Shown: piece after piece, positions 37,279 to 51,950 of the stretch
How the letters are laid out: each line of letters opens with the position of its first letter
Position numbering within the stretch: position 1 is the stretch's first letter
Assembly: GCA_947624965.1 (NCBI GenBank)
Contig: CANQMN010000010.1
Span: 1-64,000, forward strand
Direction: 5' to 3'
Length of the DNA stretch: 64,000 nucleotides
Source of the DNA: an uncultured Clostridia bacterium
Lineage (GTDB): Bacteria > Bacillota > Clostridia > Christensenellales > Borkfalkiaceae
Program-made: the position numbers and the translations under genes
The notes under the pieces: model-generated
The model's input: the letters and a program-made list of their open reading frames with translations, nothing else
Told to the model about the DNA's origin: nothing
Databases searched by the model: none

Positions 37279-37477
37279 CTACCGGTATCTTCGCTGCGCT
37301 CGATGGCTTCGGCTTCGGCTTCGCCTCGCGCGGACTTGAACCGGCGACCTTTTGCCCTCCCCAAAAAACGATCGCTCTGCGTTTTCTTCTTACCTTCCGC
37401 CCTTCTCGATCGTTTTTCGGGGACCCCATGCTTTTAATCGGCAGGTCTAACGGTCCAAGCCGAACGAGCATTTTTTT
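37279..37477. repeat. Direct repeat R1 (~200 bp) with tRNA T-arm fragment and internal inverted repeat
   Basis: Near identical to R2 at 37482; CGGACTTGAACCGGCGACCT at 37331. Confidence 0.85.
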
Positions 37478-37481
37478 AGAG

Positions 37482-37673
37482 CTACCGGTATCTTCGCTGC
37501 GCTCGATGGTTTCGGCTTCGCCTCGCGCGGACTTGAACCGGCGACCTTTTGTTCTCCCCAAAAAACGATCGCTCTGCGTTTTCTTCTTACTTTCCGTTCT
37601 TCCCGATCGTTTTTCGGGGACCCCCATTCCTTTAATCAGCAGGTCTAACGGTCCAAGCCGAACGAGCATTTTT
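37482..37673. repeat. Direct repeat R2 (~200 bp), second copy
   Basis: See R1; CGGACTTGAACCGGCGACCT at 37528. Confidence 0.85.
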
Positions 37674-37682
37674 CAAAAAAAT

Positions 37683-37703
37683 GAGACGGGCAAAACCCGT
37701 CTC
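37683..37703. terminator. Hairpin with flanking A and T tracts
   Basis: GAGACGGG CAAAA CCCGTCTC TTTTTTT. Confidence 0.7.
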
Positions 37704-37710
37704 GTTTTTT

Positions 37711-37756
37711 TGGAGCTACTGGCCGGACTTGAACCGGCGACCTGCTGATTACGAAT
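37711..37756 (-). pseudogene. Displaced 3' half of host tRNA-Thr(CGT) (att site, left)
   Basis: Revcomp ATTCGTAATCAGCAGGTCGCCGGTTCAAGTCCGGCCAGTAGCTCCA. Confidence 0.88.
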
Positions 37757-38048: not shown

Positions 38049-39569
38049 TCAATACGGTGCGGCAAGTTCCGATTCATAGTACCACTTTGCACCGAGCAAC
38101 GGAGCATTCGCATTTCCTGTTTCGGGGGCAACGCCGTCTGCCGAACCGTCATCAATCGTGATTTCCTGCTTCTGCTGTTCAGTCCCGCCGTAATAAACGG
38201 TTTGCAGGCTATCACAGCCCCAAAAGGCGGCGTTATCGACATAAGCAAGCGTTACGGGGATAATCACCGTTTGGAGAGCGGAGCAATCCTGGAAAGTCAA
38301 CCGCTCAATTCGTCGGAAGTTTCGGGGTAGTTTAATTTCCGTCAAGGCGATACAGCCGCTGAACGCTTGCTCTCCAATCGTCCGAATACCTCTCGGAAGG
38401 TCGAACGTGCCAAGCGACACGCAATCCTTAAACGCTCTCTCGCCCACTTGAATGGTGTAATCGGAAAGTGTTATCTGCGACAAGGCAGAACACCCCTCGA
38501 AAGCACACGCATAGACGATTTTCGCCCCGTATTCTGCCGTAAACTCGGTAGCACGGTCATCTTTAATCCTCATCAAGACCATATACGGGTTATATTCGTC
38601 CCCAAGATAGTAGGCATTATTCTCTTCCGTGTAAGCGAGATTAGGAAGCAAATCATAGCCGAACGAGCTATTTATCTCCGACACTCTGTCGGAGATATTT
38701 ATATTCACGAGGTTTTTACAGTCCGCAAAGGCGAAATACCCGATACTTCTAACGTCATCGTTCAAAACGACGGTTTTTAACTTCGTCGCACCCTTGAAAG
38801 CATAATCGGCGATTGCCACAACCCGTTTTCCGTTATGTGTTTCGGGTATCTTGACATACTCCAAATCTCCCGCTTGTTCGGGCGCACGCACCTCATATTC
38901 GGTGCTATTCGGAATTTGATTGAAAATAAGGCAATCGGTCGTGTATTGTGCCGTTACCGTCATATCCTGCGTGATATTGGTAAAGTCGGTTATATCCCAC
39001 ACGCCCGAATTGCCGTATTTTTCGGGGACACTCGGAATATCCGTCAAGTCGAAGCCATAAAAGACGGTTTTGACAATATCTTCTTCGTCAACCGCCTTGA
39101 ATGTAATCGTGCGACGGACGAGCCGCCCCTTCGCAAGTGCATTTATCCATTGTTCTTCCGTGCCGTAATAATCGGGATTGTACTGTAAAAACGTTTCATA
39201 CGCAGATTTACCGTCTTTGCCGTCAGCTCCGACGTAACCATCAACACCGTCCCGACCTCTTAACCAGTCCAAGAAGTCAGCCTCCGTCCCGCTATGACCG
39301 TCTGCAAGCCAAATATCATAGGCAGACAAACCGTCCTTCCCGTCATCGCCGTTTGTTCCGTCCTCGCCGTTCTTTCCGTCCTGTCCTTTCAGCCAATCCA
39401 AAAAGTCGAGTTCCGTTCCCGTATAGCCGTTATCAAGCCAAATCTCATAAGCGGACTTGCCATTGATTCCGTCTACACCGTTTTTACCGTCGCCGCCGCA
39501 AGCCGAAAGGCAAATCGCGGCAAGGGCAACGGTAAGAGCCAAGAGTACCAATACAACTGTTCTTTTCAT
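38049..39569 (-). CDS. Surface lipoprotein: collagen-like GXX segment + BspA-type leucine-rich repeats
   Basis: Lipobox LSAC; GDGKNGVDGINGKSAYEIWLDNG repeats; LRR_5 segments (YAFKGATKLKTVVLNDDVRSIGYFAFADC). Confidence 0.88.
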   Translation of the reverse strand: MKRTVVLVLLALTVALAAICLSACGGDGKNGVDGINGKSAYEIWLDNGYTGTELDFLDWLKGQDGKNGEDGTNGDDGKDGLSAYDIWLADGHSGTEADFLDWLRGRDGVDGYVGADGKDGKSAYETFLQYNPDYYGTEEQWINALAKGRLVRRTITFKAVDEEDIVKTVFYGFDLTDIPSVPEKYGNSGVWDITDFTNITQDMTVTAQYTTDCLIFNQIPNSTEYEVRAPEQAGDLEYVKIPETHNGKRVVAIADYAFKGATKLKTVVLNDDVRSIGYFAFADCKNLVNINISDRVSEINSSFGYDLLPNLAYTEENNAYYLGDEYNPYMVLMRIKDDRATEFTAEYGAKIVYACAFEGCSALSQITLSDYTIQVGERAFKDCVSLGTFDLPRGIRTIGEQAFSGCIALTEIKLPRNFRRIERLTFQDCSALQTVIIPVTLAYVDNAAFWGCDSLQTVYYGGTEQQKQEITIDDGSADGVAPETGNANAPLLGAKWYYESELAAPY

Positions 39570-39884
39570 AGCGTTTATACGCTCCTTAAAATGTATTTAC
39601 GCCGTTTGGCGCATACAAATATTATAGCAACAAACGCTCTCATCTCAAATTGCCAACAAAAAAGGACTAGCCGTATCTTCCGACTAATCCTTTCTTCATA
39701 TCGCTTGTAATCGCTTAAATGCCGCCTAAAACGCCGCAAGCGTTCTTTCGGTCAACTTCACAGGGAAACCGTTCTCGCTCGCCAAAATGCCAATTTGGAC
39801 GGCTCTTTACCGTTTGTCGATAGGTTCGACCTTGTTTCTTATTTACAGCAGTATTATGGTTTCTGCGGTTATCTTCTCTGCTAG

Positions 39885-40895
39885 TTAAAACAGTTCTCCC
39901 CAGTTGTGAGCGGCATTTAGCCCGAGACTATTTATCGGGCATAGGCTTTCAAAGGCAAACCTAAATTTACTATGAGAGCCCTTCTTTAATCTCGACCAAT
40001 ATTTGTTTATCTCATCTACAAATCTTATATGGTCGCCCACAAAGTCCATTTTCCCATTTTGATATAAAAAGTAGACTTTTCCTTTCTCGGAATACAAAAT
40101 TGATTCCTGCCCATATTTCTTACAAAGGTTCAACGCCCTTTCCTTGAAATTGGGCTGACCTTGATTCGGGACAAAGAAGCTATGCTCGTATTCGATTTCC
40201 CCGTTATCTTCTCTTGTATATTTCCCTCGTAGGGGAATATAGCCCAATCTTTCGTTCGCATTATTACCAGTAAGGTCAACCCGAAGTTCTCTTACTTTGT
40301 CTAGTTCATCTTGTTCCGACATACCCAGTTTATGAGTAGATATAATGAAAAAACCGCAGTCAGAATCGAGGTGCTTCTGAACCCTGTTCATAGAGGACTC
40401 AACTGCCGATTCACCCATAAAACTTTTAACTATCTTGGGATAAAGTCCCTCATTTAATAAGTCGTTGATTTTCTTGTCTACAAATTCCATAGTCGTATTA
40501 TCGGTAGGTTCGACCTTTACGGGCTTGCCCGCCCGCTCTAAATCCTCGATATTCTGCCTTGTACCTTTGCTTACACCGTCCCAAATCATATAGCCGCAGT
40601 CGCAATCGGCTGTCATCGCAATATCTTTTTGCCGATAGAACTCATACCCGCGCTTATCGCTTTTGAGGGCAACGACCGACCAACCGCCGACATTATTCCG
40701 CGGCACGTCGCCGCTACAATATACCGTTACTTGCCTATATCCGCGCTCCGATAAAAGCCTTTGCACGGACAAATCTATCCCGTAACAGTCCCCGATAAGA
40801 ATAGAACAATCCCCGCCGATATAAGCGTCTATCTGCTGGGTCATTTTTTTCGTGAGTTTCGTTTGATTTTTGCTACCGCCGATAAAGACCTTCAT
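39885..40895 (-). CDS. SLOG-like (YspA-like Rossmannoid) N-terminal domain fused to uncharacterised C-terminal domain
   Basis: MKVFIGGSKNQ...ILIGDCYGIDLSVQRLL...VYCSGDVPRNN...KDIAMTADCDCGYMIWDGVSKGTRQNI. Confidence 0.65.
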   Translation of the reverse strand: MKVFIGGSKNQTKLTKKMTQQIDAYIGGDCSILIGDCYGIDLSVQRLLSERGYRQVTVYCSGDVPRNNVGGWSVVALKSDKRGYEFYRQKDIAMTADCDCGYMIWDGVSKGTRQNIEDLERAGKPVKVEPTDNTTMEFVDKKINDLLNEGLYPKIVKSFMGESAVESSMNRVQKHLDSDCGFFIISTHKLGMSEQDELDKVRELRVDLTGNNANERLGYIPLRGKYTREDNGEIEYEHSFFVPNQGQPNFKERALNLCKKYGQESILYSEKGKVYFLYQNGKMDFVGDHIRFVDEINKYWSRLKKGSHSKFRFAFESLCPINSLGLNAAHNWGELF

Positions 40896-41761
40896 ACTGC
40901 GTTCCTTTTTACGGGCTTCATATCGTGAATGAAATCCGCTATATCGTAATCATCATGCCCGTCATACAGTTTTATCAAGAAATCCCTATTCAGCTTGACC
41001 CACTCAATGACCTTCGGCAATTCGGACAGGGCGGCAGAATTGCAATCGCCAACTACTTGGGGGACAATATCGGTAAAACAAACATAGACCGCCGAACCCG
41101 CATTTCCATAGATGATACGGTATTGACTTGGGGGAATGCGCTTCCCAATATCGCAAACCCATATTTCCCCAGTTATTCCCGTCCGCTTCTCCCGTAGGCT
41201 TGACATTTCAAAGGGCGGGACGATATAATCCACAGCCCCAAAAGAGATATATTCGCAAGGTACGAACTCCGTCAGCCATACGCCGCTTTCGGAGAGGTAG
41301 AACTTATAACCGTCATCGTGCATTCTACCCGCCGCAATCTCCAAAACGATTGCTTCCCCATGCCGCGCTCCGACACTTAACGCTGTTTCATGATCGCGCG
41401 AAAGATGAACATAATTCCGCGCTTGCTTCTTGATTCCTTCGGCGACGATACCGTCAAGATACTTCCTCGCCGTCCCGTGATACAACAGCGACGGTGGGAC
41501 AACCTCTTTCATCTGCAAATCCACGGCGACGGAATGACCGTAATTTGCCCGTATCTTCGTGTGCGCCTCATCGAAAGAAAAGCGGTGTTTGCTGTCGGTC
41601 GATACTATCCTTTCCAAATCGGAAATGTCAGTCTGTTTTCCCGCCCGCCTGATTCCGCCAATAAGCCTATCAACGTCAGCATAGCCGCCGCTGTCGAGTT
41701 CGACATACGCCGCCGACGGGTCATGCCGCAAGATATAAGATAAATACTTTCCGTCTATCAT
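40892..41761 (-). CDS. kptA: RNA 2'-phosphotransferase (KptA/Tpt1 family) with ~110-aa C-terminal extension
   Basis: LSYILRHDP; KIRANYGHS; LLYHGTARKYL; RNYVHLSRD: complete Tpt1 signature set. Confidence 0.85.
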   Translation of the reverse strand: MIDGKYLSYILRHDPSAAYVELDSGGYADVDRLIGGIRRAGKQTDISDLERIVSTDSKHRFSFDEAHTKIRANYGHSVAVDLQMKEVVPPSLLYHGTARKYLDGIVAEGIKKQARNYVHLSRDHETALSVGARHGEAIVLEIAAGRMHDDGYKFYLSESGVWLTEFVPCEYISFGAVDYIVPPFEMSSLREKRTGITGEIWVCDIGKRIPPSQYRIIYGNAGSAVYVCFTDIVPQVVGDCNSAALSELPKVIEWVKLNRDFLIKLYDGHDDYDIADFIHDMKPVKRNAV

Positions 41762-41764
41762 AGT

Positions 41765-42208
41765 CTATCCTTGAATTGCTCCCGCCTCTTTGAGTACCCG
41801 ATTGACAAGTTCGCTGTCGGTTTCCTCAATTCTCGAAAGTAACATTAACGCTTGCCTATCGGTTATACGCCTTTCATAATGAGCCAAAAACACTCTCGAA
41901 TACGCCTTTATGTACTCCCGCACCGCATTAAGCCCTTTGGGGCTGTCAACGCAGTTTTGGGACAAGTCTTTTGAAAGGCATACCGAAATCAATTCGTCGC
42001 CAATCTGAACCATAACTTGCGGGATCCGAACCTTGCCGCCGTTTCTATCTTTGCCCAAACTGTCAATCCATAGGTCATAGGCTAGTCCCGTGTCCTTCTT
42101 CGACACACAAGCCATTTCATAGAAGGGCTGTCTTGAATTTATGAATTTGATTATATCCAATTCCTTCGCCCTCGCAATATCCGATTGCATACTTCCTGCA
42201 ATCGCCAA
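41765..42208 (-). CDS. Hypothetical protein with LDIIKFINS motif
   Basis: ORF in leftward operon. Confidence 0.6.
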   Translation of the reverse strand: MAIAGSMQSDIARAKELDIIKFINSRQPFYEMACVSKKDTGLAYDLWIDSLGKDRNGGKVRIPQVMVQIGDELISVCLSKDLSQNCVDSPKGLNAVREYIKAYSRVFLAHYERRITDRQALMLLSRIEETDSELVNRVLKEAGAIQG

Positions 42209-42283: not shown

Positions 42284-42676
42284 TCAGCTCCTGTCAAAAT
42301 GACACTTGTAATGCTCGCTTCCGTCCTCTCTGACCGATACGGGAATACCGTTCAATCCGAAAAGGTGTTTTATTTCGTCAGCCAAGTGCAATATATTGGC
42401 ATTCAGCCATATTGTCGCCTTGCCGTTCCGAATTTCAACCCTGCCGCGCGGATAATAGTCAAACGGCTTTCCATGCGTTGTCTTTTTCGGCAAGGCTATC
42501 CACGTCGCCTTGTGGTTGTAACTCATTCCGTCGGACGAATTCAACCCTATGAAATCAACGGGAATGCCGTCCATATCGCAACCCTTTGCGAACATGAGAA
42601 TACGATCGGGAGACAGTTCATCTTCCGTGTCAGCCAAAACCCAAAATATTCCGCGTGAAATCCCTTCGATTTTCAT
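42284..42676 (-). CDS. Hypothetical protein
   Basis: ORF abutting the upstream gene at 42676. Confidence 0.6.
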   Translation of the reverse strand: MKIEGISRGIFWVLADTEDELSPDRILMFAKGCDMDGIPVDFIGLNSSDGMSYNHKATWIALPKKTTHGKPFDYYPRGRVEIRNGKATIWLNANILHLADEIKHLFGLNGIPVSVREDGSEHYKCHFDRS

Positions 42677-43278
42677 TACTCGGCGACGGGAATGTTTATC
42701 TCCAACCAGTCAAAGGAGTTAAAGTCCTCGTCGTTTTGCTCGCTGTCATAGACTTTGTAGATAGTACCGTCCGTTGTTACTTCTTCCGTCAAAATACGGC
42801 TCGAAGCGGAGAATTTTTTATGTATTTTGAGTTTAGCCTTACCTTCATCGCCCCATGCCGTAACCCCGACACCTTTAAGGAATTTCAAAGAGTTATAGAA
42901 TGCGTCGATACACTCTTGGTAGGTCGCAAACCGTTCTTCGTCAGCCACCCACCCCGATTGTGCATTGTAAAACTCCGCGCAGAAATACGCCCCGTCGCTG
43001 TCCGACAGACACTCTGCAATCAGGCGTTGTTCGCTCTCCATATACGCCAACAGAAAATCCGCAAGGTGTACTCCCTCTAAAATGTGTCCTTTGCGGGTTT
43101 TCAAAATATGATCGGGGTAAAGGGACATGAGTTCTCTGTATGCTTCATGCTTTTCGTTAACGGAAAAGTTTTCGGCTCTCTGAATAAGATAAATTGCTTC
43201 TTCGGGGGAGAACTCATGATTGCTCTTTTTGAGCTGTTCCGCAAGTTCCTTTGAATTTACGAATTTGATTACGTCCAT
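42676..43278 (-). CDS. Hypothetical protein with MDVIKFVNS N-terminus
   Basis: ORF overlapping the upstream gene. Confidence 0.65.
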   Translation of the reverse strand: MDVIKFVNSKELAEQLKKSNHEFSPEEAIYLIQRAENFSVNEKHEAYRELMSLYPDHILKTRKGHILEGVHLADFLLAYMESEQRLIAECLSDSDGAYFCAEFYNAQSGWVADEERFATYQECIDAFYNSLKFLKGVGVTAWGDEGKAKLKIHKKFSASSRILTEEVTTDGTIYKVYDSEQNDEDFNSFDWLEINIPVAE

Positions 43279-44165
43279 TGTTCATACTCCTCTATAATTT
43301 TTGTTATTATTTCCAACGGTGCGGGGGAACCCGCCCGAAAGATACGATATTCTTTGCGTTCCATTGGGGGCTTCTTTTCTTCCTCGGCAAGCGTCGAGTA
43401 ATCGATATAGCCCTCATCGAGAACTTCTTCCGCCGTAAAGGTCAGAATGTCTTGTAGGAATAGCCGCTTCTTTTTGTTTCGTCGCCTTTGGTAGTCTGAT
43501 ACAATGCCTTCCACCATGCGCACGAACCGTGTGCGATCGCACCTGCAAGCGGCGGCGCAAATATGCGCTATCCGACAAATCACGTCAAAACTTCCGCACT
43601 CGCCGTCATAAGCCGAATCAAGGTGTGCCGACAGATACCTTTCCATTCGGTCAAATTCTTCCCGTGTATAATCATCCTTATGAATAAGCCGCCTATATTC
43701 GGCGTATAGGTGTTTTGTCGCATAAGGTTCAGACAGCCCTATATCGCAAACTTTTTTGAACTCCGCAAAACTCAACGGGGATTCAAGGTGTGTCGTTTCG
43801 TGTCCATAGTCAAATTCTATGAATTTTCCGACAGCCCAATTCACGCCGCCAACTCGCCATGCGATATAGTCAAAGATACCCGTGATTTTGGCATTGTCTT
43901 TGTCTGCAAAAATCACTTCATCATTATCATCGGTCAGCCCGCATTCGGCGGTGCAGAAAGCCTCGAAGTCCTCAAACACCTTTGCGGCGGGAGTGTCATC
44001 CAAATTCTCGTAACTGCTGATTTTGTCCTCGACCTCACGCTTGAAATAGTGCTTTTCATCTTCACTTACCGCATAAATCACACTCGGCTTGCCTTTGCCA
44101 ATGTTATTCTCAACGGCAACAAATATCCGTTTTTTCTTGTATATATCGGTACTATTATTGTTCAC
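43269..44165 (-). CDS. Uncharacterised family, paralog of the C-terminal half of the upstream gene
   Basis: GTG start after GGGAGGAACAGG, overlapping the upstream stop; AVSEDEKHYF, IGLSEPYATKHLYAEYRR, DRMERYLSAHLD. Confidence 0.7.
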   Translation of the reverse strand: MNNNSTDIYKKKRIFVAVENNIGKGKPSVIYAVSEDEKHYFKREVEDKISSYENLDDTPAAKVFEDFEAFCTAECGLTDDNDEVIFADKDNAKITGIFDYIAWRVGGVNWAVGKFIEFDYGHETTHLESPLSFAEFKKVCDIGLSEPYATKHLYAEYRRLIHKDDYTREEFDRMERYLSAHLDSAYDGECGSFDVICRIAHICAAACRCDRTRFVRMVEGIVSDYQRRRNKKKRLFLQDILTFTAEEVLDEGYIDYSTLAEEEKKPPMERKEYRIFRAGSPAPLEIITKIIEEYEQWT

Positions 44166-45903
44166 CCTGTTCCTCCCACACCCCCAATGGTTCTGGAATA
44201 AATGCCCGAACACAAGATTCCTTTCCCGCCTCGATGATCTCTTTTACGATTTGGAAGTTTTCGGGGTTCAGATTTAGGTAGATTTTATATAACCTACGTC
44301 CCAAGGGCGGTTTCCTGCCGTCGCTCTCAATACTTCTATAATCAACCTTGCCTTCGCAAGCGACCATTTCCGCAGTATCGCGCAACAACAAAAAGAGATG
44401 AGTTTTCTTATATCCATTCTTTCTGCGCTTATAGTCATCGACAATGTAATCCATAAGTGCCGAGAACCGCTTATAATCGCATTCACACATCATCGCGCAC
44501 ATGGCAAGTATGCGATATAAGACCTCTCCGCCGTTTACAATGGTTTTATGGCGATGAAACACGTCCAAATGGGCTTTGACATAACTCTCCATTCGGTCGA
44601 GTTCTTCTTCCGTGCAAGTGTCGTTGTGAATGTACTGCCGCTCGTATTCCTCATATAAGCGTTTCGTCGCATACGGCTCGGACAGTCCTATGCCGCAAGA
44701 CTTTTTGAATTCCTTAAAGGGTAAAATGTTTTCCCGATACAGCATTTCGACACGATAACCGCCCTCAATATCGACCGACCGTATCTGCCACAATGAGAGA
44801 TACGCCGACACCGCTTTGTCGAAGTAGCTTTTCGGTCTGTCGGCAAAGACGACCGTGATATTCTCCGTATCTATACCGCATTCCTCGGTGCAAAAATCCG
44901 CAAATTCCGCAAACACTTTTACCACGGGCAAATCATCTTCTTTGTCAAGGGAACGTTCGTTGTATTCGCTTAAATCCCCCTCGAAAGTGCGCTCGAAATA
45001 GTGCTTTTCGTCCTCGCTGACGGCACGGAAAACATTCGGCTTGTTCTTCCTCGAATTGTTTTCTATATGGGCGAATATGTATTTTCTCTCGGCTTTCCGT
45101 AAGTCTTGTTTCTTCAAAACGACGGAATCACACACCAAAACCGAAAGCGTTACGGGGTTGAATTCTATCCCCGTGATATTCTCGTTCAGATACTCGCACA
45201 AGGCGTATATCTTTGCGCAGAAATACAAATATCTTGCCCTGTCGGGTGTCGCTTTCACCCGTAAATCCTCGGGGAAAGAGTTATAAACCCTCATATTCTC
45301 GTCGAAAAGAGCGTGTTTTATCTCGTCCGGCACAACACAATCGCCCACAATACATTTTTCGGCGTGAAAAAGCCGCTTGCTTTTGCCGTACAGTTTTATA
45401 TCAAACGGAATAACACTCCTCGGGAAAAAGCCGTGTAAGAACTTGCTCGCAACCTTCAAAAAAGAGGAGGTAATCCGAATATACTCCGTGTCGTATTGCT
45501 CCCGAAAGAAATATTGAACCGTATCTTTAAGGCAATCCTCAAAGTCGAACACGGTCTTAACAGCCTGCGATAAAGCACGCAAATCTCTTTCCGAACCGTC
45601 AAACCTCAACTCGCTTTGCGGGGCAATATTCTGTTCGGAGAGTTCTTGCGCAACATACTTGCATAACGCCTCCGACCATTTCCCGTGTTGAAACGGCTCC
45701 TGTTCTTTCATACCAGTTATTGTATTGAACAGGAAGGCAAATTCGGGGTAATCGGAGAAGCACTTAAAAATATCTTCGATATGCTCCGCGCTCCCGAATA
45801 TTCCTTTTCGGGGATCGCAAGCATTATAGAGTATGGCGTAATTCCGTGCGGCAACGCTTTCTTCTTCATTGATACTTTTTACACAGTCGATAAATGTAGT
45901 CAT
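44155..45903 (-). CDS. Uncharacterised protein (~582 aa) of the same family
   Basis: Start MTTFIDCVKS; AVSEDEKHYF, IGLSEPYATKRLYEEYER, DRMESYVKAHLD. Confidence 0.7.
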   Translation of the reverse strand: MTTFIDCVKSINEEESVAARNYAILYNACDPRKGIFGSAEHIEDIFKCFSDYPEFAFLFNTITGMKEQEPFQHGKWSEALCKYVAQELSEQNIAPQSELRFDGSERDLRALSQAVKTVFDFEDCLKDTVQYFFREQYDTEYIRITSSFLKVASKFLHGFFPRSVIPFDIKLYGKSKRLFHAEKCIVGDCVVPDEIKHALFDENMRVYNSFPEDLRVKATPDRARYLYFCAKIYALCEYLNENITGIEFNPVTLSVLVCDSVVLKKQDLRKAERKYIFAHIENNSRKNKPNVFRAVSEDEKHYFERTFEGDLSEYNERSLDKEDDLPVVKVFAEFADFCTEECGIDTENITVVFADRPKSYFDKAVSAYLSLWQIRSVDIEGGYRVEMLYRENILPFKEFKKSCGIGLSEPYATKRLYEEYERQYIHNDTCTEEELDRMESYVKAHLDVFHRHKTIVNGGEVLYRILAMCAMMCECDYKRFSALMDYIVDDYKRRKNGYKKTHLFLLLRDTAEMVACEGKVDYRSIESDGRKPPLGRRLYKIYLNLNPENFQIVKEIIEAGKESCVRAFIPEPLGVWEEQGEQ

Positions 45904-46083
45904 AATAACCTCTTTGGGCGTATATCGGGATACCAATATTATACCATATTTGAATTTTCAAAGCCGTTGCGAAGGCTTTTTGCGGCGGGAATGCTAAAAT
46001 TCCCTGTTTAATAGTAACGCCTATAAGCGTGGGGCTTATAGGCGCAGGGGAACATTATCATAGGGCATACTGCGCTTCCCACA

Positions 46084-48827: not shown

Positions 48828-49751
48828 ATGATGTGTAAATACCCTATAAAAGCTATCCGAAAACAAAATAAACTAATAATTCTAAATATAGATGAAATAA
48901 AAAAGGATTGCCAGACAACTTTTGCGCGCGCCGCCGTTTTTCTTCCTTGCCGCCAATGTTTAATGTGCCGTTGGGAGCAATATCACGACTGGTCGCTCCG
49001 CTGTAAATTAGAGGCAAAACGGTATAATAGCAACCTATTTGTAACGCTAACTTACGAGGAATCACCTATCATCGTCAAGAAAAGCGAACTGCAAAGATTT
49101 ATGAAAAATCTGCGAACGCATTTTGAAAGACACCTTGGGCTTACGGGCATACGCTTTTTCGGGTGCGGTGAATATGGAAAAGAAAATCTGCGCCCGCATT
49201 ATCATATAATCATTTTCAACTGTCCCCGCTTCGGCGACGAAAAGTTTTATAAGAAAGACAAGGCGGGATACCCTCTTTACAAGAGTGAAACAATAGAGCG
49301 TTTATGGGGCAAGGGGTTTTGCACGATTGGAGGGGTGTCGGACAAATCCATTGAATATGTAACTCGCACATTTATAAAAAGCTACTATATTAAACCGCCA
49401 AATAAAAACGCACCCGCTTTCGTTTCCATGTCAAAACAAGGCGGGATTGGTATGCAGTACTTAACCGAACACTTCGACGAAATAATAGAAAATGGCTTCA
49501 TTGAGTACGACGGTCGGCTATATCGCATTCCCTACGCATACAACCGTAAAATCGAAGAAAAAATCGGAACGGAAGCATATACGGAGAAAGTCGTCATCCC
49601 GCGCAAGGAGCAAGAAGAAGCGTTTCGCAAAATGCTGGGCGAAGGCGGTCAACCGCCTACTGATGTTCCTACTGATATTATAGAAGAACCCGAAGCCATA
49701 GAGCAACGAATTAGCAAGCTGATTGCGCACGACGAAGAAACCCCAATCTAA
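48828..49751 (+). CDS. rep: Replication initiator, Microviridae (gokushovirus VP4)-type HUH Rep
   Basis: PCRQCLMCRWEQYHDWSLRC; LFVTLTYEE; FFGCGEYGKENLRPHYHIIIF; MSKQGGIGMQYL; DGRLYRIPYAYNRK. Confidence 0.88.
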   Translation: MMCKYPIKAIRKQNKLIILNIDEIKKDCQTTFARAAVFLPCRQCLMCRWEQYHDWSLRCKLEAKRYNSNLFVTLTYEESPIIVKKSELQRFMKNLRTHFERHLGLTGIRFFGCGEYGKENLRPHYHIIIFNCPRFGDEKFYKKDKAGYPLYKSETIERLWGKGFCTIGGVSDKSIEYVTRTFIKSYYIKPPNKNAPAFVSMSKQGGIGMQYLTEHFDEIIENGFIEYDGRLYRIPYAYNRKIEEKIGTEAYTEKVVIPRKEQEEAFRKMLGEGGQPPTDVPTDIIEEPEAIEQRISKLIAHDEETPI

Positions 49752-49978: not shown

Positions 49979-50392
49979 ATGAGAACCACAAGACAAGAAA
50001 AGAAAAAGAAAGCAATCGAGTACCTTACAACGCTGAATATTTACGAGGACTATATCACAGGATTCCGCAAGTACGACAATGTATGCTTTTTCGAGCGTTT
50101 CGGCGGCTATTGGGCTTTCCAAGAGCCTGAACTGATGAAGAAGATACGGGAAGTCGAGAATAGGTATAATTGCCTCGTCTATGCCGTTACGCACGAATAT
50201 ACGGAGTTCGGGGAACTTTACGATCTTCTCATAGTATCGGGCTACCAGGAAGATTGGGACGGGCTACTCGTGAAAACCAACTCGGGCTTTCTCGCCTTTG
50301 CTTATGTCTGGAACAAAGACGACAATAGTTGTAGCGAACTCGGCACGATAGGCGTTCGGTCGTTCGGCGGCGGCATAATGAGGTGCGCATAA
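49979..50392 (+). CDS. Hypothetical protein, translationally coupled to integrase
   Basis: TAATG overlap with integrase ATG at 50392. Confidence 0.6.
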   Translation: MRTTRQEKKKKAIEYLTTLNIYEDYITGFRKYDNVCFFERFGGYWAFQEPELMKKIREVENRYNCLVYAVTHEYTEFGELYDLLIVSGYQEDWDGLLVKTNSGFLAFAYVWNKDDNSCSELGTIGVRSFGGGIMRCA

Positions 50393-51816
50393 TGAGGAAC
50401 GAAAGGCATAAACTTTGCTATCCGAATTACAACAAGAACGGCGTTCTGATTTCATACCGATTTTTCTATACGGGCAAAGACCCTTTAAGCGGTGCGCCAA
50501 AGCAATTTACCAAGTGTTGGAAAGTCCCCACGGGCTTGACCGCAAAGGAAATCGAGCGGGAGCGCAGAGCGGCTGAAATCGCTTTTATCCAAGAAGCGGA
50601 GAAGAAATCGCTCGGAACATATATCCCCGACACCAATGTCCTTTTCGGCGACTTTGCCGACCAATGGCTTGAAACCGTGAAATTGAGGAGCGACAGCGGC
50701 TATTCGAGCTATGAATCCGCAAAAACTCATCTCCCGATACTGAAAGCCCATTTCGGGAATTGCCTGTTACGCAATATCACCCCGCGAATGATACAGTCCT
50801 TCTACAACTACCTTACCACACGCACATACACGAAAAGCACCGTAACCGTCAAGAAGTCAATCCAAGACCTCTTACGGGAGCATAAGCTGAACAAGACCAC
50901 AGCGGCAAAAGCCTGCGGCATTGGCAAGCCTACTTTTGCGGCGGCTACGGTTATAGGCAAGAAAGTCAGTTTGCAGACGGCTCAAAAGATATGCGGGTAT
51001 TTCAAAATCCCGATAGACCGTTATTTTACCGTCGAAACCGTGCGGGAGAAATACTCCGTCGCTACGAACAGGGGCATACGGACACTTCTCGTTATGATAC
51101 TCAACTCCGCACGGAAGCAACAACTCATCGAGTACAACTACGCCACAAAGGAATATACCGAGCCTATCAAGGGGACGGAAAAGGGCAAGCGTTTTTACAG
51201 CGACAGCGAGGCACGGCGATTTCTCCAATTGACAATGGAAGAGAAAGACATCCGAAAGAAAACCGTCTTTTCGCTATTCCTCTATTTGGGCTTACGCAAC
51301 GCCGAACTATGCGGGCTTGAATGGCAGGACATAGACTTTGAACAAGGCACTCTCACCGTATCGCGCAACTCGATTTACTTTTCCGACTTCGGCGTTTGCA
51401 CGAAAGCACCCAAAACGCAAAACTCGGCGAGGACGGTATCAATGCCGCCGAAGCTGATAGAGTTACTGCACGAGTATAAGGAATGGTGGGACGACCAAAA
51501 GGAACAGCACGGCGACCTTTGGCAAGAGAGCAAGCGGCTGTTCCTCAACGACAACGGGAAACCGATACACCCTTCCACGCCGAGCAACTGGCTTGAAAAG
51601 TTTCAGGCAGAACACGGGCTAGCCCACGTTTCTCCCCATGCGCTCCGACATACAAGTATAACCTTACAAGTAATGGCGGGTATCCCCATAAAAGCCGTAT
51701 CACAACGAGCAGGACACGCTAACGAGGCGATAACGCTTAATATCTACACGCACCTACTGCAAGAGGAAGATAGACGAGCCGCCGCAAAGTTCGACACTTA
51801 CCTTTCGCCACAGTAA
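50392..51816 (+). CDS. int: Site-specific tyrosine integrase with internal XRE-like HTH
   Basis: YLGLRNAELCGLEW, HALRHTS, GHANEAITLNIYTHL; insert KTTAAKACGIGKPTFAAATVIGKKVSLQTAQKICGYFKIPIDRYF. Confidence 0.93.
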   Translation: MRNERHKLCYPNYNKNGVLISYRFFYTGKDPLSGAPKQFTKCWKVPTGLTAKEIERERRAAEIAFIQEAEKKSLGTYIPDTNVLFGDFADQWLETVKLRSDSGYSSYESAKTHLPILKAHFGNCLLRNITPRMIQSFYNYLTTRTYTKSTVTVKKSIQDLLREHKLNKTTAAKACGIGKPTFAAATVIGKKVSLQTAQKICGYFKIPIDRYFTVETVREKYSVATNRGIRTLLVMILNSARKQQLIEYNYATKEYTEPIKGTEKGKRFYSDSEARRFLQLTMEEKDIRKKTVFSLFLYLGLRNAELCGLEWQDIDFEQGTLTVSRNSIYFSDFGVCTKAPKTQNSARTVSMPPKLIELLHEYKEWWDDQKEQHGDLWQESKRLFLNDNGKPIHPSTPSNWLEKFQAEHGLAHVSPHALRHTSITLQVMAGIPIKAVSQRAGHANEAITLNIYTHLLQEEDRRAAAKFDTYLSPQ

Positions 51817-51837: not shown

Positions 51838-51868
51838 GAAAAAGACTATCTTTCGATAGCCTTTTTCT
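51838..51868. terminator. Intrinsic terminator after integrase
   Basis: AAAAAGACTATC tttc GATAGCCTTTTT. Confidence 0.65.
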
Positions 51869-51874
51869 TTGTTT

Positions 51875-51950
51875 TGGAGCTACTGGTGGGACTCGGACCC
51901 ACGACCTGTTGATTACGAATCAACTGCTCTACCAGCTGAGCCACAGTAGC
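51875..51950 (-). tRNA. tRNA-Thr (anticodon CGT), complete, CCA encoded
   Basis: GCTACTGTGGCTCAGCTGGTAGAGCAGTTGATTCGTAATCAACAGGTCGTGGGTCCGAGTCCCACCAGTAGCTCCA folds as a 76-nt cloverleaf. Confidence 0.95.

Follow-up and report, generated by a model that had tools for sequence, protein, structure and literature searches.

What does KptA do in bacteria? The role of bacterial KptA/Tpt1, an NAD-using RNA 2'-phosphotransferase, is an open question, and in many of its hosts no pathway involving RNA 2'-phosphates is known (PMC6333775). We addressed this question through a locus of an uncultured Clostridia bacterium of the Borkfalkiaceae (GCA_947624965.1, contig CANQMN010000010.1, positions 1-64,000; this stretch of 64,000 nucleotides is called the window), in which a KptA gene overlaps the gene for a SLOG-domain protein. 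The pair offers a route to what KptA does, as a coupled partner from a family tied to ShosT/PsyrT leads to a specific hypothesis for KptA. We tentatively favor, with a probability of roughly 40%, a ShosTA-style module of an enzyme and a SLOG protein, in which KptA takes the slot of a phosphoribosyltransferase (PRTase) and which is carried on a ~14-kb element integrated at a tRNA-Thr gene.

KptA and its translationally coupled SLOG partner

The open reading frame of KptA (40892-41761, minus strand) encodes 289 residues, the first 174 of which (41240-41761, minus strand) form a KptA/Tpt1 core. PF01885 matches residues 4-165 (E=3.6e-43, 148.1 bits versus a curated cut-off of 26), and the solved enzyme 7kw8 in the Protein Data Bank (PDB) matches with E=2e-49. 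The initial annotation of this DNA had described the signature motifs of KptA as intact, and the alignment to 7kw8 bears this out: the whole Arg-His-Arg-Arg tetrad, defined for Tpt1 in PMC6333775, is present as R12, H13, R71 and R115, and is invariant across six KptA sequences. The intact active site would be compatible with the removal of RNA 2'-phosphates or with an attack on RNA or phosphate ends.

While the fold, the Pfam family and the tetrad are those of Tpt1/KptA, the window protein differs from other members in its tie to a SLOG gene and in an apparent mobile-element domain of ~115 residues at its C-terminus. This tail (residues 175-289; 40892-41239, minus strand), which had been predicted at ~110 residues, has no match in Pfam. 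It is weakly related (pairwise E=3e-5) to p147, a protein without a database match whose gene lies 3 bp upstream of KptA (41765-42190, minus strand), and it is matched, with a phmmer E-value of 8.5e-13, by a gene that stands alone on a related element (L194:1501-1905; L-numbers are loci in other genomes or contigs and G-numbers are genomes). Because of its likeness to these two, the tail seems to be a small domain of mobile elements that KptA has acquired. The KptAs of L111 and L112, described below, do not have this extension, and plasmids hold no convincing homologues of p147 or of the tail.

The second gene (39885-40895, minus strand; 336 residues) overlaps KptA by 4 nt, as had been claimed, through a shared ATGA that combines stop and start codons (40892-40895, minus strand; local sequence ...GCAGT ATGA AG...). 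The same junction is found in L109, L111 and L112. Residues 1-131 of the encoded protein (40503-40895, minus strand) form a SLOG domain similar to ShosA, DprA and YpsA. Modeled separately from the rest of the protein, this domain reaches a predicted local distance difference test (pLDDT) score of 90 in AlphaFold (AF2). A Foldseek search of the PDB with this model returns E. coli ShosA first (8zva; E=7.9e-6, TM 0.72 by query length), followed by DprA and YpsA. The Rossmannoid fold with GD-x-x-G-x-D and S-x-GT motifs that characterizes SLOG domains is present, and G7, G35, G39, D41, Q45, R66, D91, G101, M103, W105, S109, T112 and N115 are invariant in an 85-row alignment. The structure comparison thus supports the SLOG domain proposed in the initial annotation, which was right about the start of the protein but overlooked its second half, a SAM-lyase domain.

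LOG-type phosphoribohydrolases carry a catalytic Glu in a GTxxE motif. The window protein has N115 at that position, invariant in all 85 rows, a residue that would suit a SLOG acting as a binder.

A SAM lyase inserted into the SLOG gene

The S-adenosylmethionine (SAM) lyase cassette (39885-40490, minus strand) covers residues 136-336, with the domain itself at residues 160-300. PF23780 matches the full protein with E=1e-8 (35.6 bits) and the C-terminal half with E=3.3e-9 (37.2 bits; cut-off 28). The predicted active site consists of G224, Y226, E237, Q263 and E264, and the Svi3-3 residues that are strictly conserved or were tested (G56, Y58, E69, Q104 and E105; PMC7877911) all have counterparts here, with the same Tyr-to-Glu spacing of 11, although some alignments place the Glu at E235 instead of E237. 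The top Foldseek matches of the lyase model are the phage SAM lyases 6zm9, 6znb, 8bb1 and 7ock, and the search also reaches the T3 enzyme; the model is of low confidence (pLDDT 57), and we treat this result as supporting only. PF23780, the G-x-Y motif and the Gln-Glu motif are features in common with the phage SAM lyases (T3 SAMase, Svi3-3) and SAM-AMP lyase. A SAM lyase appears to be a better fit than a SAM-AMP lyase, given that a G-x-Y motif is present and that the spacing from Tyr to Glu is short. Unlike the phage enzymes, the window lyase is fused to the C-terminus of a SLOG domain and is encoded on a bacterial integrative element.

Comparison with L109, a contig of a metagenome-assembled genome (MAG; isolate 'Lapin-005'), reveals the origin of this fusion. 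L109 is 95-97% identical in DNA to the window on both flanks and has no lyase, and its SLOG gene ends in ...KVEPIDKR*. Relative to L109, the window contains an insert of 684 bp between two copies of a ~20-nt direct repeat, one at the SLOG/lyase junction (40498-40517) and one past the lyase stop (39814-39833). The downstream copy matches the SLOG 3' end of L109 and holds this native end with its stop codon. GC content is 39% in the insert versus 49-51% in the SLOG domain and the KptA core. The lyase part begins with its own Met136, followed by MEFVDKKINDLLN, which resembles N-termini in the gene array of L194 (for two of the four L194 N-termini, 0 of 2000 shuffles reach the observed scores). 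The lyase is a recent in-frame insertion into the 3' end of the SLOG gene, and gain is a simpler explanation than loss because L110, L111 and L112 also do not have it, leaving it confined to the window copy. Caught among relatives that are nearly identical, this capture illustrates how conflict proteins with multiple activities are assembled by mobile elements.

Through the captured domain, the same polypeptide would gain a predicted SAM-destroying activity. The lyase probably lowers SAM, an effect that would impede restriction-modification in the manner of T3 SAMase; it may instead act as an effector.

Relatives of the lyase were seen in other settings as well. Those in marine phages (L049-L108) begin with MKTFKEFLEESSLSRI-like sequences, which we take to resemble the capsid-targeting propeptides of T4, as would be expected of a lyase that is packaged and injected. 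On a viral contig (L280:3001-5115), a SAM-lyase-like gene lies ~1 kb on from KptA on the opposite strand. DUF3293 (PF11697) seems related to the SAM-lyase family, as the two models hit the same phage proteins (L066:4740-7553).

Exchange of the SLOG partner and readings of the pair

We surveyed the SLOG family by using its alignment to scan 85,488 genomes; of the 297 relatives obtained, the best 80 were read. A ComF-type PRTase gene directly precedes the SLOG gene, touching or overlapping it, in 85 of the 107 loci with upstream sequence, and these PRTases match the PsyrT, ShosT and retron PRTase_III-A models of PADLOC. A DprA and PRTase pair is reported to block T7 and lambda, and DprA homologues are the antitoxins in shosTA, syrTA and rqlHI (Rousset et al., PMC9122126). 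ShosT disturbs purine metabolism, and ShosA is a DNA-binding antitoxin that counters it (2025 review, PMC12593503). With ShosTA/PsyrTA (SyrTA, RqlHI) the window pair has in common the enzyme-then-SLOG order, the touching or overlapping genes, the mobile context and, for ShosTA, the closest structure to its SLOG domain. It differs in its fused SAM lyase and in having KptA in place of the PRTase.

Other arrangements were noted as well. A reverse-transcriptase-like gene precedes the PRTase-SLOG pair in L007 (21-2049), a retron-like arrangement, and has no close relative in the other SLOG loci. On a phage-like contig (L113:41-871), the SLOG gene directly follows what looks by eye like a gene for a MazG-type nucleotide pyrophosphohydrolase.

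The exchange of partner maps to a single branch of the family. The SLOGs of the window and of L109, L110, L111 and L112 form one clade (support 100/99), which includes all of the KptA partners and no PRTase partner. L111 and L112 carry complete pairs, with KptA directly before SLOG and the ATGA overlap, and their proteins are 55-57% (KptA) and 50-51% (SLOG) identical to those of the window. Of the same KptA tail, L109 retains just the last codons, at the start of the contig, followed by the ATGA junction and a 95%-identical SLOG, the rest of the pair being cut off by the contig end. The pairing is thus found in other genomes, and because the ATGA-coupled pair recurs, we rejected the idea that KptA is a chance neighbor of SLOG. 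The KptA slot of L110 is occupied by a gene whose product has an RNase_T exonuclease domain, and a HAD_SAK RNA-repair gene precedes it.

No relative of the SLOG protein turned up in 50,697 phage records, and this SLOG is missing from all 80 viral KptA loci (0/80), so we rejected the idea that the pair is common in phages; scanning viral_contigs with each full protein as a single query likewise gave no match. The host's own family was rejected as a common home of the pair, as 200 of its genomes hold no full-length relative of the SLOG-lyase protein and, among the 201 family genomes, the KptAs in four others have no adjoining SLOG. In a phylum sample of 349 genomes, KptA occurs in 15 others, none with SLOG beside it, some of these loci being cut by contig ends. 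In two family genomes, KptA-like matches with internal stop codons were observed near HAD_SAK genes (L190, L193 and L195).

The initial annotation had suggested an NAD+-linked conflict or RNA-repair system with SLOG as a sensor; ShosA, the nearest relative of solved structure, is described as a DNA-binding antitoxin. How the pair is read depends on which partner is followed: the usual ShosT/PsyrT-like PRTase of the SLOG favors a toxin-antitoxin-like conflict module, whereas KptA and the HAD_SAK neighbors favor RNA repair. In the ShosTA-style module that we favor, KptA would be the working arm in place of the usual PRTase, and the DprA/ShosA-like SLOG, translationally coupled to it, would restrain it, act as a sensor or repair its effects; infection or damage would upset the KptA/SLOG balance. 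We count in support of this reading the predominance of PRTase neighbors, the ShosA structure as top match, and the conserved KptA-SLOG order with its ATGA. The surroundings of relatives were counted as well, namely a ResIII/SNF2-type helicase and a recombinase-like gene beside L111, the ADP-ribosylglycohydrolase downstream in L112, and a TIR protein in G081. A more specific version, in which KptA would be the effector of a toxin-antitoxin-like anti-phage module with a ShosA-like antitoxin and the operon would join NAD+, RNA 2'-phosphate and SAM chemistry, is rather unlikely.

Several observations weigh against a ShosTA-style module. KptA looks ordinary, with 50-57% identity to phage and chromosomal copies, and not like a diverged toxin, and deletion of kptA in E. 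coli has no phenotype (PMC6333775). The ShosA and PsyrA hidden Markov models of PADLOC do not match the window SLOG, a further difference from these systems, and match its relatives only weakly; the link to the ShosTA family is drawn from structure and partner. Beyond the window, the analysis yielded only two complete pairs and a third that is cut by a contig end, all in MAGs of gut Clostridia. Finally, the RNase_T-like exonuclease and HAD_SAK genes of L110 look more like RNA repair.

Thoeris provides another point of comparison, since it combines a SLOG with NAD+ chemistry. In Thoeris, ADP-ribose derivatives are bound by SLOG domains (PMC11204291, PMC9503650), and the product of KptA resembles signals of the cyclic ADP-ribose type. 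Whereas Thoeris consists of TIR and SIR2-SLOG proteins, the window pair has neither TIR nor SIR2 and belongs to another SLOG branch, closest in structure to ShosA/DprA and not to ThsA. The tested cargo contains no TIR that could serve as the cyclase for a ThsA SLOG effector, and the PADLOC models assign the window to neither Thoeris nor ShosTA.

The leading alternative, which we consider rather unlikely, is that the locus is a kit for RNA repair and counter-defense. KptA would heal RNA 2'-phosphates left by attack of host RNases, SLOG would handle the nucleotide by-product, and the SAM lyase would blunt restriction or SAM-using defenses on entry. This explanation stands close behind the ShosTA-style module because HAD_SAK is found near the SLOG clade (L110) and near KptA-like genes of the host family (L190, L193). 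The intact tetrad agrees with it, as does the frequent presence of KptA without SLOG in phages (C. difficile phages, jumbo phages), where it has been read as RNA repair (PMC9503650). L110, with a SLOG of the same clade, adjoins HAD_SAK and exonuclease genes, and the KptA-like genes of G199 and G149 adjoin HAD_SAK. However, none of the cargo genes of the element was recognized as encoding an RNA ligase, a 2H phosphoesterase or a kinase, the viral KptA loci do not carry this SLOG, and the usual PRTase partner of the SLOG family has no known role in RNA repair.

A neighborhood rich in small shuffled domains (p130, p147, the KptA tail and the lyase cassette) and the different domains fused to the SLOG C-terminus in L110, where the domain is p130-like, and in L112 would accord with two genes that have no functional link, carried as cargo by an element under rapid reshuffling and coupled by chance, but this is improbable, as the order and the ATGA overlap are kept across genomes at ~50% protein identity.

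The integrated element and its other genes

Between about 36 and 51 kb of the window, GC content falls from ~60% to ~45%. A tRNA-Thr gene (51875-51950, minus strand) at the right end is the probable integration site, and an att-like repeat at the left (37702-37756) is 84% identical to 51866-51920. A tyrosine integrase (50383-51816, plus strand; PF00589, 8.4e-28) and a replication-initiation (Rep) protein (48828-49751, plus strand; PF23343, 9.8e-20; phrog_942, 5e-74) are encoded inside. Judged by these sequence features, this is an integrated element of ~14 kb. The genes are thus mobile cargo, as the initial annotation had proposed, but the setting is an integrative element and not a clear prophage.

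Beyond p147 lies p130, a small mobile-element gene (42284-42676, minus strand). In L110-L112, a homologue of it (phmmer 2e-27 to 4e-19) either comes after SLOG or forms a fusion with it. Downstream of the pair is a gene for a BspA-type LRR_5 lipoprotein (38049-39569, minus strand; PF13306, 8.4e-39), and an LRR_5 gene is near SLOG in L109-L112 too. G081 has a related element with Rep and integrase, on which a TIR protein, a p130-like gene and a homologue of the KptA tail are found. L194 (69-1905) and L197 contain an array of small genes with common N-terminal motifs (MEFVDKxVNEILN, SAYEM) and varied C-terminal domains, located on a Rep- and integrase-bearing element that also encodes a TIR protein.

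Repeats are found at several positions in the element. AACGCTTnCGGCGTTTTAG has only two copies in the genome (39726-39744 and 42215-42233, minus strand), which flank the p147-KptA-SLOG-lyase block, and a mini-ORF and a terminator-like hairpin come after the downstream copy; these copies are possibly a cassette boundary or a leader. A diverged tandem duplication at 43269-45936 comprises p314 and the C-terminal half of p593, neither of which matches a known domain above cut-off. Two tandem repeat copies of ~200 bp (37311-37673) adjoin the left att-like repeat.
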